From assembly GCA_028703475.1 (NCBI GenBank), contig JAQVMU010000001.1:1-44435 (forward strand): a DNA stretch of 44,435 nucleotides, given 5' to 3'. The position numbers were made by a program, and so were the translations under genes. Every line of letters begins with the position of its first letter. Position 1 is the first letter of the stretch. Positions 38,730 to 44,435 of this stretch are shown in pieces. The notes beneath the pieces are model-generated. The model had not been told where the DNA came from, did not search any database, and saw nothing but the letters and a program-made list of their open reading frames with translations. This stretch comes from Atribacterota bacterium. GTDB taxonomy: Bacteria; Atribacterota; Phoenicimicrobiia; Phoenicimicrobiales; Stramentimicrobiaceae.

Positions 38730-39761
38730 TTACTTGAAGAAAATCTTTGCGAAATCAATCCATTCCTGGTTAACTGTTTTAATCTCTTTTGTCGCTTCTT
38801 CCAGAGGAGTGGCAACTATTTGATTTCCCTTCATAGCTGCAAGCTTTCCAAATTCCTGTTGTTCGATTAACTCAACTGCCTTTACACCGGTGCGCAGACC
38901 CAGCATCCTGTCAAATACAGTAGGAATTCCTCCTCTTTGCATGTGTCCGATCACGGCATGTCTTGTTTCTATACCGGTTTTTTCAGTAATTATATCCCCT
39001 AATGATTGCCCGATTTCTCTCTTTTTTAGTATCATATGACCAAATTGGTCTAACTCTTCTTCTCCCATACCAACTCCTGGCAATTCTACTCCTTCCGAGA
39101 CAACAACTAAGGCATATTTTTTCCGGGAATATACTCTTTGCAGTTGCTTGCACATTCCTTCTATGTCCGGGGTTTCTTCCGGTATCAAAATCCAGTCTGC
39201 ACCGGAGGAAAGACCCGTATAAAGAGCTACCCAGCCGGCATGTCTTCCCATTACTTCCAGTATCATTACACGATGATGGGATCTACCTGTATCTTCCAGA
39301 CTTTTCATGGCTTCTACTGCCCTGGTAACTGAGCTGTCAAAGCCAAAGGTAAAATCTGTATCAGATAAGTCATTATCCATTGTTTTGGGGGCACCAACCA
39401 CATTTACCTGATGTTCATGGTATAACTTACTGGCAACACCCAGAGTATCTTCTCCTCCCATTGCTAATATAGCATCCAAACCATAATTATTTATTGTATT
39501 TAATACTCTCTGTACACCGCCTTCAATTTTAAATGGATTAGTCCGGGAGGTTCCCAGGAAAGTTCCTGCTTTATCAATTAATTCCTCTGCATCCTGTAAA
39601 TGAATTTTAAAAAGGTTTCCATCAATTAATCCTCTCCAGCCATCCCTGATGCCAAAAACTTCATAATTATAATCATGGGCTCTATAAACAGCACCGCGAA
39701 TAGCCGGATTTAATCCACAACAATCTCCTCCACCAGTTAAAATTCCTATTCTTTTTGACAT
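38730..39761 (-). CDS. 6-phosphofructokinase with PPi-type residues
   Basis: Phosphorylates fructose-6-phosphate. It shows TGGGDCCGLN, GWRGL, the substrate loop PKTMDNDL and MGRHAGWVAL. In PFK phylogeny, Gly at the positions equal to E. coli 104 and 124 indicates ATP use, while Asp and Lys indicate pyrophosphate. Here they are D105 (GGEDT) and K126 (APKTMDND), so a PPi-dependent enzyme is the better prediction. Length is 343 residues, similar to group III enzymes. The ATG has GGGAGGAA upstream. It follows fba by 52 bp and ends at a clear terminator. Confidence 0.9.
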   Translation of the reverse strand: MSKRIGILTGGGDCCGLNPAIRGAVYRAHDYNYEVFGIRDGWRGLIDGNLFKIHLQDAEELIDKAGTFLGTSRTNPFKIEGGVQRVLNTINNYGLDAILAMGGEDTLGVASKLYHEHQVNVVGAPKTMDNDLSDTDFTFGFDSSVTRAVEAMKSLEDTGRSHHRVMILEVMGRHAGWVALYTGLSSGADWILIPEETPDIEGMCKQLQRVYSRKKYALVVVSEGVELPGVGMGEEELDQFGHMILKKREIGQSLGDIITEKTGIETRHAVIGHMQRGGIPTVFDRMLGLRTGVKAVELIEQQEFGKLAAMKGNQIVATPLEEATKEIKTVNQEWIDFAKIFFK

Positions 39762-39813: not shown

Positions 39814-40680
39814 TTATGCCTTATTGTTTGAACCTAATACTCTGATACGCCCTCTTATAACCTCTTTTGCAGCTTCTTTTGCAGGTGCCAGCATTTTTCG
39901 GGGATCTATCTCTTCAGGGTTTTTTTCAAGAAAATCATTTGCGGCTTTAGTAAAAGCCATACGAATTCGGGTATCAATGTTTATTTTAGTTATACCTGCA
40001 GCTATTCCTTTTCTTATTTCTTCATCACATGCCCCGGATGCTCCGTGCAAAACCAAAGGTACTCCTGTTAAATCTCGTATCTTTTCTATTCTTGGTATAT
40101 CCAACTGTGCTATTGGTTCCTTACATCCATGAATTGTTCCCACTGCGGCAGCCAATGAATCAATTTTAGTCATTTTGACAAATCTTTCAGCCTCTTCCGG
40201 ATCAGCCATATATTCCTTTATTTTTTCAAGAGCTACACCAGGCTCATCGCTGGAATCCATCTTCCCGATTTGACCGATTTCGGCTTCTACCGGTACATCG
40301 CAAACATGAGCCATTTCAACTACTTTTTTGGTCATTGCCACATTTTCATCAAAGGGAAGCTTGGATCCATCAAACATCAATGAAGTAAAGCCAGCTCTCA
40401 AACAAAGAATATTCTGATTATAATCAGTTCCATGGTCTAAGTGTAACACAACCGGTATAGTTGCCCTTTCCGCCATTGACCTGACCATACTGACAATCAT
40501 GTCCAGGCCGGCATATTGAATTGCTCCCTGGGAAGCCTGGACTATAACCGGGGATTTTTCCTCTTCTGCCGTTTCAATGATAGCTTGAACAATCTCCATA
40601 TTGTTTGCATTAAATGCTCCGACAGCATACTGTCTTTTTTGTGCGTCAATTAACATCTCTTTACTGGTTACTAATGGCAT
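39814..40680 (-). CDS. fba: Fructose-bisphosphate aldolase, class II
   Basis: Cleaves fructose-1,6-bisphosphate to the two triose phosphates; zinc-dependent. The metal motif HLDHG (80-84) includes ligand H83 and the catalytic D82. Further family segments are PVEAEIGQIG, LVLHGASG and GITKINIDT. Length is 288 residues. The ATG at 40680 has GAGAGGAGA upstream. It is the first gene of the fba-pfk operon, driven by the promoter at 40773-40801. Tagatose-bisphosphate aldolase is a close relative, but the partner gene favours a glycolytic role. Confidence 0.95.
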   Translation of the reverse strand: MPLVTSKEMLIDAQKRQYAVGAFNANNMEIVQAIIETAEEEKSPVIVQASQGAIQYAGLDMIVSMVRSMAERATIPVVLHLDHGTDYNQNILCLRAGFTSLMFDGSKLPFDENVAMTKKVVEMAHVCDVPVEAEIGQIGKMDSSDEPGVALEKIKEYMADPEEAERFVKMTKIDSLAAAVGTIHGCKEPIAQLDIPRIEKIRDLTGVPLVLHGASGACDEEIRKGIAAGITKINIDTRIRMAFTKAANDFLEKNPEEIDPRKMLAPAKEAAKEVIRGRIRVLGSNNKA

Positions 40681-40990: not shown

Positions 40991-42001
40991 ATGCCAGAAT
41001 TTGGAAATGAAAATAACCCTGATAAATTTGCTAATATAACAGAAAAGATATCAAAGATACAAATTGGAAAAGGTATAATTAAAATATTATTCCTGCTCAT
41101 TCTTATTATTTATCTTGCCAGCGGTATTTATATTGTTCAGCCAAATGAACAGGGTGTAATAAAGCGCTTTGGAAAATTTGCAAGAATTGACAGTCCTGGA
41201 TTGCATTATCATCTTCCCTACCCTTTTGAATCAGCCCTGACCCCCTCTGTTACTGAGGTAAAGCGTATTGAAATTGGCTTTAGAACTGTTCGGGGAGGTT
41301 ACGTAGAAGTATCCGAGGAGGCATTAATGCTAACCGGTGATGAGAATATTGTCAGTGCAGAGTCAATAGTCCAGTACAGGATAAAAAATGCTGCTGATTA
41401 TCTCTTCAATATCATTGAACCGGAACAAACGGTTAGGAATGCTGCTGAAGCAGCATTACGACAGGTCATTGGGGAACGAAAAATTGATGATGCTTTAACT
41501 GAGGGAAAGTATGAAATACAGGAAGAGTCAAAGGTATTAATTCAAGAACTGCTTGATTCCTATGAATCAGGGATTGTAGTTATTGCAGTACAGCTTCAGG
41601 ATGTAAATCCTCCTGAGGAGGTTTCGTCAGCTTTTAAAGATGTGGCCAGTGCAAAAGAAGATAAAAGCAAATTCATCAATCAGGCTGAAGGCTATCGGAA
41701 TGACATAATTCCAAATGCCAGAGGTGAAGCTGCTAAGATTATCAAAGAAGCCGAGGGTTACAAAGTTGAGAGAATAAGAAAAGCTGAAGGAGATGTTGCT
41801 AAATTTAATCAGGTTCTGACTGAATACCAAAATGGAAAGGATGTAACAAAATATCGTCTGTATATTGAGACTATGGAATTAATACTGCCTAAGATGAAAA
41901 AATACATCATGGAAACGAATAATGATACTGACTTGCTGAAATTTTTACCTCTGAGTGATTCATTTATGCCAGAAATCCTCGGAAAGGAGGCTACCAAATA
42001 A
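40991..42001 (+). CDS. hflK: HflK-like SPFH/prohibitin membrane protein
   Basis: Membrane-anchored SPFH-domain subunit that in E. coli forms a complex with HflC around the FtsH protease. A single N-terminal transmembrane segment (28-48) is followed by the Band 7 start VQPNEQGVIKRFGKFARIDSPGLHYHLP and a long helical region with ARGEAAKIIKEAEGYKVERIRKAEG repeats (about 230-265). Length is 336 residues. The ATG at 40991 has GGAGAT upstream. Its stop overlaps the hflC start (TAATG), so the pair is translationally coupled. No ftsH gene is in the window. Confidence 0.93.
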   Translation: MPEFGNENNPDKFANITEKISKIQIGKGIIKILFLLILIIYLASGIYIVQPNEQGVIKRFGKFARIDSPGLHYHLPYPFESALTPSVTEVKRIEIGFRTVRGGYVEVSEEALMLTGDENIVSAESIVQYRIKNAADYLFNIIEPEQTVRNAAEAALRQVIGERKIDDALTEGKYEIQEESKVLIQELLDSYESGIVVIAVQLQDVNPPEEVSSAFKDVASAKEDKSKFINQAEGYRNDIIPNARGEAAKIIKEAEGYKVERIRKAEGDVAKFNQVLTEYQNGKDVTKYRLYIETMELILPKMKKYIMETNNDTDLLKFLPLSDSFMPEILGKEATK

Positions 42002-42858
42002 TGAGAAAAAGTTTATTAATAATTATTTTAGTATTAGTTATCATAGTTGCAAATTTTTCCTTCTTTATTGTTGATGAAACCAAGCAGGCTATAATTCTGC
42101 AATTCGGCAAGCCTATAAAAGCAATTCAGCAAGCCGGTCTATATATGAAAATACCTTTTATTCAAAATGTAGTATTGTTTGAAGGAAGACTGCTTATCTA
42201 TGATGCCCAGCCGACAGAGATTATTACCCGGGATAAGAAAACTTTAATTTTAGACAATTATGCCAGATGGAAAATTGAAGATCCTTTGCTTTTCCTGCAA
42301 ACTGTTAGAGATATTAATGGCGCACAGGCAAGACTGGATGACATTATTTACTCAGAATTGAGAGTAGATTTGGGAAAGTTTGATATGAGTGAAATTGTCT
42401 CTCAAAAAAGAACAGAAATTATGAAGACAGTAACTGAACGAAGTAATGAAAAATCAATAGAATATGGAATTAACATTATTGATGTAAGAATTAAAAGAGC
42501 GGATTTACCTCCTGAAAATGAGCAAAATATCTTTGCCAGAATGGAAGCTGAACGTGAAAGAATTGCCAAACAATATCGAGCAGAAGGTGAGGAAGAATCT
42601 GCAAAGATTATTGCAGAAACAGAGAGAGAAAAAACAGTTATTCTCGCTGAAGCATACAAGGAAGCGCAACAGTTAAGAGGTGAAGGAGAGGCAGAAGCAA
42701 TTCGAGTATATGCAGAAAGTTTTAATCAGGACCCGGAATTTTACAAATTCTACAGGTCATTGGAAGCATATTTAAATAGCTTTAATGAAAACACCACTAT
42801 TTTATTATCTCCTGATAATGAATATATAAAATATATTAATGATTTATCAGGTAATTAG
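42001..42858 (+). CDS. hflC: HflC-like SPFH/prohibitin membrane protein
   Basis: Partner of HflK. An N-terminal transmembrane segment (4-23) precedes the Band 7 domain (VDETKQAIILQFGKPIKAIQQAGLYMKIPF), the IKRADLPPENEQNIFARMEAERERIAKQYRAEGEEE stalk helix (about 165-205), and the conserved YRSLEAYLNSFNENTTILLSPDNEYIKYI end. Length is 285 residues. It begins one base inside the hflK stop. Transcription ends at the hairpin at 42877-42930, which is shared with the convergent fusion gene. Confidence 0.94.
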   Translation: MRKSLLIIILVLVIIVANFSFFIVDETKQAIILQFGKPIKAIQQAGLYMKIPFIQNVVLFEGRLLIYDAQPTEIITRDKKTLILDNYARWKIEDPLLFLQTVRDINGAQARLDDIIYSELRVDLGKFDMSEIVSQKRTEIMKTVTERSNEKSIEYGINIIDVRIKRADLPPENEQNIFARMEAERERIAKQYRAEGEEESAKIIAETEREKTVILAEAYKEAQQLRGEGEAEAIRVYAESFNQDPEFYKFYRSLEAYLNSFNENTTILLSPDNEYIKYINDLSGN

Positions 42859-42998: not shown

Positions 42999-44435
42999 TT
43001 AATATCCTTCTGAGAGATCCACTTTATTTTCCGGCTCCTCCCCATAAAAAATCCTGGTAATATTATTGTAAACAGATTGTATATTCTCTTCAACCGCCTT
43101 ATCACTGTACCCGGCATTATGAGGAGTCATAATAATATTACCCAGTTCGTGAAAAGGATATTTTCCCGGCAATGTTTCAGGGTGTTCTCTGTCAGGATAA
43201 CGATACCATGTATCTATTGCCGCTCCGGCTAAATGTCCATTTTTTAAGTTATGATAGAGAGCCTTTTCATCAACAACCCTACCTCTACCTATATTGATAA
43301 GGTACTTATCTTTCATTAATTTTAACATATCTCCATCCAGCATATTATTGGTTTTTTCAGTAAGGGGCACTGCAACAATAATAAAATCAGACATTTTGAT
43401 TACATACTCCAGGGATTCATGATTGCCTAAGAATGTTAATCCGTATATCTTCTCCAATTGCTCTTCCTCTTTAATTTTCCGTTTAATGGCATAGATATTC
43501 ATACCGAAAGGTAATGCCCTTTTCGCAATTTCTAAACCAATAGCACCAAAACCGATAATACCCAGGTTTCTACCATGAAGCTGGAGTGTGGTTTCCTGTG
43601 AAATAAAGCCATGCCATTTTCCTTTTCTTAAATCTCTGTCAGTATTGATTAAATCTTTTGCCAGTGCTAATAATAAACAGATTGCATGTTCTGATACAGC
43701 ATGGCTGTTTCCGTGAACATTACACACATTAACTTTTGGAAATTTCCGGAAAGCATCCAGGTTCTGCTTATCTACACCTGCAAATGGTATCTGAAATAAT
43801 TTTAGATTCTTGGCCATTTGAAGGTTATCCTCATTTAGCTCTCCACCAATGATTACATCCGCCTCTGCTATCAGTTTATTTAGTTCAGTCTTCTTTTTTG
43901 CTTTAAAATTAATATTCAGGGGAATACTATTAATTTTATTAGATTTATTTAATAGTTTTACCCAGTTCTCTCTGCTGACCATCTTGCTTAAAACAAGTAC
44001 ATTTATTGTCTTATTACATGACTCGCTAATCAGATTTTGTCTATCATTTTCATATCTGCGTGCAGCAATTATATGTTTGCATTCCAAATTCCATTTTTGA
44101 CAGTTATTTTGAAAATCATAACAATCACATTCTGGAACATCAAGGTTGACATGATATGTTTTTTTACTCTTTTGGTTTTTTACCAAAAAAATATTCCCCT
44201 CTCCTCCCTCTCTGCAAATAGACAAATCATTTGCGGCTAAAGCCCTGTTGTTTTGTTCCTCCTGTATCAACAGCTTTCTTGCTAAATTATCAGCTATCTT
44301 GTTTTCTTCCCGACGATTCCAGATAAAAAATACCGGTACTTTTATTTCATTTAGTAATTCCTGTATTCTCTCATAAAGAGGGATCATCCTTTTGTTTTTT
44401 ACTTTAAATTGCTTATTCAACTGTTTCACGACCAA
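42999..44435 (-). CDS. Fusion protein: RNase H-like domain (C-terminal half), SWIM zinc finger and D-2-hydroxyacid dehydrogenase; N-terminus outside window
   Basis: The frame is open at the window edge; the first visible codon, TTG (44435), is internal. Residues are counted from there. 1-56 match the second half of bacterial RNase HI-like proteins (VVKQLNKQFKVKN; REENKIADNLA), with D49 at an active-site Asp position. 94-125 form a SWIM finger with ligands C103, C105, C119 and H121. 144-478 form a D-2-hydroxyacid dehydrogenase: GFGAIG in the GxGxxG loop (295-300), catalytic-type R384 and H439. The usual catalytic Glu of the DVFxxEP motif is Tyr (Y413, DTWYRYP), as in a distant subgroup. All three parts are in one uninterrupted frame. 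The substrate is unknown. Confidence 0.8.
   Translation of the reverse strand: MVVKQLNKQFKVKNKRMIPLYERIQELLNEIKVPVFFIWNRREENKIADNLARKLLIQEEQNNRALAANDLSICREGGEGNIFLVKNQKSKKTYHVNLDVPECDCYDFQNNCQKWNLECKHIIAARRYENDRQNLISESCNKTINVLVLSKMVSRENWVKLLNKSNKINSIPLNINFKAKKKTELNKLIAEADVIIGGELNEDNLQMAKNLKLFQIPFAGVDKQNLDAFRKFPKVNVCNVHGNSHAVSEHAICLLLALAKDLINTDRDLRKGKWHGFISQETTLQLHGRNLGIIGFGAIGLEIAKRALPFGMNIYAIKRKIKEEEQLEKIYGLTFLGNHESLEYVIKMSDFIIVAVPLTEKTNNMLDGDMLKLMKDKYLINIGRGRVVDEKALYHNLKNGHLAGAAIDTWYRYPDREHPETLPGKYPFHELGNIIMTPHNAGYSDKAVEENIQSVYNNITRIFYGEEPENKVDLSEGY

Follow-up and report, generated by a model that had tools for sequence, protein, structure and literature searches.

A fusion protein that joins an RNase HI, a SWIM zinc finger and a D-2-hydroxyacid dehydrogenase in one chain is encoded on the minus strand of the window, i.e. 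the whole stretch of 44,435 nucleotides that was analysed, and is real and conserved in one order of Atribacterota. The architecture is new, while its parts and its general kind, RNase HI with a metabolic enzyme as fusion partner, are already known. RNase HI gains with it an architecture that was absent from the libraries searched and is conserved within one order of uncultured bacteria; a SWIM finger here accompanies a bacterial RNase HI as an added module. We consider it likely that the product is a bifunctional housekeeping protein, whose RNase HI-SWIM part and NADP-type D-2-hydroxyacid dehydrogenase are independent enzymes joined by stop loss.

Reading frame and domains of the fusion gene

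The ORF check of the window gave an open frame without interruption at 42999–44435 (minus strand). The contig (119,976 bp) extends beyond the window, and the complete gene was located at contig positions 42999–44657 (minus strand), encoding 552 aa from an ATG preceded by GTAGAGG (ribosome site AGAGG); the TTG at 44435 marks the window edge only, the true start lying upstream. The single uninterrupted frame across three domains, described in the earlier note from the window alone, thus holds for the whole gene, and the missing N-terminal half of the RNase H domain, which was to be looked for past 44435, is present with all four catalytic acids. Residue numbers refer to the full 552-aa protein; the 15-orthologue alignment counts without the first Met and is one lower. 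The following features were assigned:

Contig 44436–44657, minus strand: first 222 bases of the fusion gene, beyond the window
42999–44435, minus strand: portion of the fusion gene inside the window (residues 75–552 of 552 plus stop)
44262–44435, minus strand: RNase HI, C-terminal part (residues 75–132; whole domain 1–132), from Pfam RVT_3/RNase_H, DEDD residues, PDB profile and fold
44043–44195, minus strand: SWIM zinc finger (residues about 155–205; C177, C179, C193, H195), from motif, Pfam in two orthologues, hhalign and AF2
44004–44042, minus strand: hypervariable linker (residues about 206–218), where the genes of G004 and G009 are split
43002–44003, minus strand: D-2-hydroxyacid dehydrogenase (residues 219–552), from Pfam, PDB profile and alignments
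40991–42858, plus strand: hflK and hflC, from NCBIfam (hflC) and conserved order
39814–40680, minus strand: fba, downstream of the fusion, name read from the sequence
38730–39761, minus strand: pfkA, downstream of the fusion, name read from the sequence

Judged by sequence, the N-terminal part belongs to the archaeal/LC11/Rv2228c type of RNase HI and has intact catalytic residues. The full protein matched RVT_3 (6.3e-18) and RNase_H (1.3e-11) in Pfam, and the DEDD residues D9, E48, D72 and D123 were invariant in the alignment of 15 orthologues, D123 lying inside the window and the other three just outside. The best solved relatives by PDB profile were LC11 RNase H1, Rv2228c (1.9e-22) and S. 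tokodaii RNase HI; Rv2228c was also the top fold match (Foldseek 3hst, E 1.9e-12, TM on target 0.83) of the RNase H-SWIM AF2 model (pLDDT 91.8, pTM 0.82). The fusion shares its fold and DEDD residues with single-domain prokaryotic RNase HI (LC11 RNase H1, S. tokodaii RNase HI, RVT_3/PF13456), which carry neither the SWIM module nor the dehydrogenase. The gene is single copy, no second RNase HI having been found in the order's genomes, and RNase HII is present in most of them. The RNase HI part probably removes RNA from RNA/DNA hybrids, with both activity and substrate being predictions.

The predicted zinc ligands, numbered C103, C105, C119 and H121 in the earlier note, correspond to C177, C179, C193 and H195 of the full protein. 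This CxCx13CxH set was invariant in 15 orthologues, with Y, V, D, F and A around it also conserved. The window's own protein stayed below the Pfam SWIM threshold; the curated cut-off was passed in the fused proteins of two orthologues (G011 and G006), counting frame neighbours, and profile–profile comparison (hhalign) with SWIM domains gave a probability of 96%, while control regions taken from these proteins stayed at <1%. Together with Pfam on the full protein, motif, orthologues and hhalign agree with the three domains and their order as read earlier from the window. The fusion has CxCx(n)CxH, the preceding Y.V strand and the following helix in common with SWIM domains (PF04434), its C2–C3 spacer being 13 residues long. 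Among the matches listed (386 genomes), only this order showed a SWIM adjoining RNase HI: every listed one outside it ended near profile position 130–150, short of the SWIM and thus lacking the finger, and a wider RNase H-SWIM family was rejected on this ground. The finger may serve as an extra nucleic-acid-binding module or clamp that helps to grip the hybrid.

The C-terminal part (2-Hacid_dh_C 2.5e-46, 2-Hacid_dh 5.9e-11; Pfam, full protein) has the two-domain fold, GxGxxG and the catalytic Arg and His in common with PH0597 (2dbq), PH0520 (2d0i) and PH PGDH (1wwk) (PF02826/PF00389). Invariant in the fused family are GxGxxG at 369–374, R458, H513 and also Tyr487 (window 43197–43199), which occupies the usual catalytic Glu position; this Tyr, and the joining to RNase H-SWIM, set the fusion apart from glyoxylate/hydroxypyruvate reductases and phosphoglycerate dehydrogenases. 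An Arg-Glu-His triad holds for most 2-hydroxyacid dehydrogenases, formate dehydrogenases having Gln at the Glu position, and here R458 and H513 are present with Glu replaced by Tyr487. As the triad is not universal in the superfamily, assignment to the superfamily holds, but the domain does not qualify as one of its canonical catalytic members; the dehydrogenase could be altered or merely ligand-binding. Stand-alone relatives from other lineages (L154–L160) carry the same Tyr, which marks it as a subfamily trait and not as decay after fusion. Dehydrogenases of this subfamily, with the motif D[TV]W[YWF]xY, stand alone in family f3 and in several other lineages.

Basic residues in place of Asp after strand β2, as in the NADP enzyme 2dbq, suggest use of NADP(H), so that of the NAD-dependent dehydrogenase named in the earlier note the enzyme class was retained and the cofactor revised to a predicted NADP type. 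The domain scored far under all NCBIfam equivalog cut-offs, and the window's genome holds a single further complete NAD-binding domain of a 2-hydroxyacid dehydrogenase. The top PDB fold match of the fused dehydrogenase, one among many near-equal dehydrogenase matches, was a model titled TKRA-RECF by crosslinking MS, known from the PDB title alone; a literature search for a TkrA-RecF paper found none. The combination of RNase H, SWIM and dehydrogenase was absent from every domain library searched, and a literature search for it in Atribacteria found nothing, in keeping with the earlier remark that no standard architecture combines these domains.

Conservation of the fusion and its junction

All carriers of the fusion belong to Candidatus Atribacteria/Atribacterota. 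The RNase H-SWIM part was found in 20/24 genomes of the order, the other four being 63–76% complete, and in 18 of the 20 gene-bearing genomes, from two families, all three domains are fused in one frame, with 48–75% identity to the window's protein and the same domain order. The earlier note had named a separation of the genes in related genomes as evidence against the fusion; such a separation exists in two genomes (G004 and G009), at the linker, and the other 18 stay fused. Since the same fusion occurs in 18 separately assembled genomes, chance and misassembly are excluded. That sequencing or assembly wrongly joined separate genes, for which the overlapping separate genes of the two relatives could be cited, is accordingly of negligible probability, given 18 independently assembled orthologues with this range of identity, one domain order and purifying selection.

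Elsewhere in the phylum, families either gave no match or carry a free-standing RNase HI that lacks SWIM and usually lies in a run, with two other conserved genes ahead of it. An apparent fused gene in one of them (L105, on contig C201 of the f5 genome G045) was rejected as probable binning contamination: it consists of the N-terminal portion of the fusion and the LOG gene at the end of a contig, 96–99% identical to f1 relatives. The fusion fragment is 99% identical to that of G006, and a stand-alone RNase HI is present in G045 besides. A viral origin was likewise rejected, no relative of the fusion having been found in IMG/VR.

Mean identity was 28% in the linker, 69% in RNase H, 56% in SWIM and 62% in the dehydrogenase; judged by domain dN/dS of about 0.02–0.2 in pairs without synonymous saturation, all domains are under strong purifying selection. 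The start Met of the dehydrogenase is kept in most fused genes. In G005, G007 and G008 (L035, L034 and L044, respectively) the dehydrogenase begins AAAAAAATGAA(A/G), an A7 run followed by the retained Met. A one-base loss from the A7 run of these three loci would give AAAAAATGA, with the stop overlapping the start.

The split G009 has an A5 run, and its upstream frame terminates in a TGA that overlaps a TTG start; in the split G004 an A-run upstream has two bases fewer than that of the fused sister G006, the dehydrogenase retaining AGGAG...ATG. In the dehydrogenase tree the fused clade is a single group, in which G004 stands next to the fused G006 and G009 next to the fused G002. The two splits, caused by small A-tract indels, look like secondary, independent events because they nest among fused relatives; errors in the A-runs are less likely, and if the splits were such assembly errors, the argument for a dispensable link would be weaker. 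The A7 junction is a possible slippage or switching site.

Genomic setting and function

Among relatives the order LOG-family gene (TIGR00725), fusion, hflKC, fba, pfkA, dnaE and polA is conserved, dnaE and polA following pfkA/fba downstream of the fusion. Apart from hflC and TIGR00725, the neighbours are presumably what their names say, these having been read from the sequences. The window's own genome has no LOG-family gene beside the fusion, and coaE, uvrB, uvrA and uvrC come after polA. The hflKC pair lies between fusion and fba on the opposite strand and is not counted as part of the unit, since only some relatives have it at this place, others (L035, L036, L041, L044) lacking it. The neighbourhood combines replication/repair with glycolysis.

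In the reading we prefer, RNase HI and dehydrogenase would once have been neighbouring, translationally coupled genes, an origin suggested by the retained dehydrogenase Met, by the A-tracts at the junction and by a stop that overlaps a start in one split relative; a frame change would then have removed the stop between them, giving one chain. The RNase HI-SWIM head would remove RNA from hybrids, with the SWIM assisting the grip, and the dehydrogenase would reduce a 2-oxoacid with NADPH, both cofactor and substrate class being predicted. The two enzymes would most likely work independently, the fusion providing co-expression. 2-Hydroxyacid dehydrogenases are dimers, and because enzymes of this family dimerise, the fused RNase H is probably dimeric via the dehydrogenase.

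Independence is the most likely reading in view of the split relatives, the linker identity of 28%, the occurrence of each half alone elsewhere, the recurrent unrelated partners of RNase HI and the RNase HI-CobC precedent (both described below). Against it stand the retention of the fusion across two families, which drift alone would not necessarily bring about, and a gene neighbourhood, with dnaE, polA, fba and pfkA, that is conserved. The RNA/DNA-directed redox regulation or NAD-sensing nuclease put forward in the earlier note found no positive support, given the hypervariable linker, fusion loss at A-tracts, halves that occur alone and unrelated partners elsewhere; redox- or RNA-directed regulation is possible. 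A functional coupling, in which the dehydrogenase would sense NADPH or a glycolysis-linked 2-oxoacid and modulate RNA-primer or R-loop removal, linking replication to carbon metabolism, was retained as an unlikely rival because of the replication/glycolysis neighbourhood, the genetic links between glycolysis and replication reported for B. subtilis (PMC1866360, PMC9009071), and the TKRA-RECF fold match. Retention of the fusion in 18 genomes also favours it, and a Tyr in place of the catalytic Glu might suit a ligand-sensing role. However, gene adjacency is no proof, TkrA-RecF is one of many near-equal matches, and variable linker, viable-looking splits, stand-alone halves and unrelated RNase HI partners elsewhere argue against coupling. 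More speculative and very unlikely is the form in which the dehydrogenase would report NADPH or a glycolysis-derived 2-oxoacid to RNase HI, thereby setting primer/R-loop removal near the dnaE/polA machinery, with the junction A-tract letting some lineages switch between fused and separate enzymes. Quite unlikely, too, is a scaffold role, in which a catalytically reduced dehydrogenase (Glu to Tyr) would mainly dimerise the RNase H-SWIM head to grip long hybrids: the invariance of Tyr487 in the fused family and the textbook dimerisation of 2-hydroxyacid dehydrogenases would fit it, but R458, H513 and GxGxxG are invariant in a domain under strong purifying selection, and the Tyr is shared with stand-alone relatives.

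Recurrent RNase HI fusions

A studied precedent is the RNase HI-CobC fusion (NF005567; Rv2228c of M. tuberculosis, MSMEG_4305 of M. smegmatis), likewise restricted to a single lineage: its N-terminal RNase HI is of the RVT_3 type, as in the Atribacterota protein, a variable linker connects it with a metabolic enzyme to which it is unrelated, and both domains are under purifying selection (PMC7466739). It differs in its partner, an α-ribazole phosphatase, in having no SWIM and in belonging to another phylum. The domains of full-length MSMEG_4305 are functionally dissociated, and loss of the phosphatase domain from RNase H-CobC had little effect on growth, the authors favouring drift (PMC7466739). 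The cut-off of NF005567 (326 bits) was passed in 1/290 genomes; the fusion protein scored 94 bits, over the RNase H part only, and is not a member.

In other, unrelated genomes, RNase HI of the same type was found fused in frame to IMP dehydrogenase (IMPDH, L117), to DAHP/KDO8P-synthase-family (KdsA-like) enzymes (L120, L121), to IspF (L126, L128), to a CoA-binding/Succ_CoA_lig (acyl-CoA-ligase-like) protein (L114–L116) and to a PD-(D/E)XK protein (L130). The fusions L114–L117, L120/L121 and L126/L128 resemble the Atribacterota protein in RNase HI type and in-frame metabolic partner, and differ in that the partners are others, RNase H is mostly C-terminal and there is no SWIM. Counting CobC, RNase HI is thus repeatedly fused to unrelated metabolic enzymes, of which there is seemingly no collected account in the literature searched. 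Either RNase HI genes fuse easily without consequence, or a common reason ties hybrid removal to metabolism, and the natural fused and split relatives described here make this question directly testable.

Further long frames (L118, L119, L122, L124, L125, L127, L129, L131–L133 and L202–L208) had no recognisable metabolic partner by eye, for L122 also by Pfam, and were not counted. A separate case is L123 (G083:C34), a single frame containing three RNase HI-like repeats, of which the last two look degraded at the catalytic motif.
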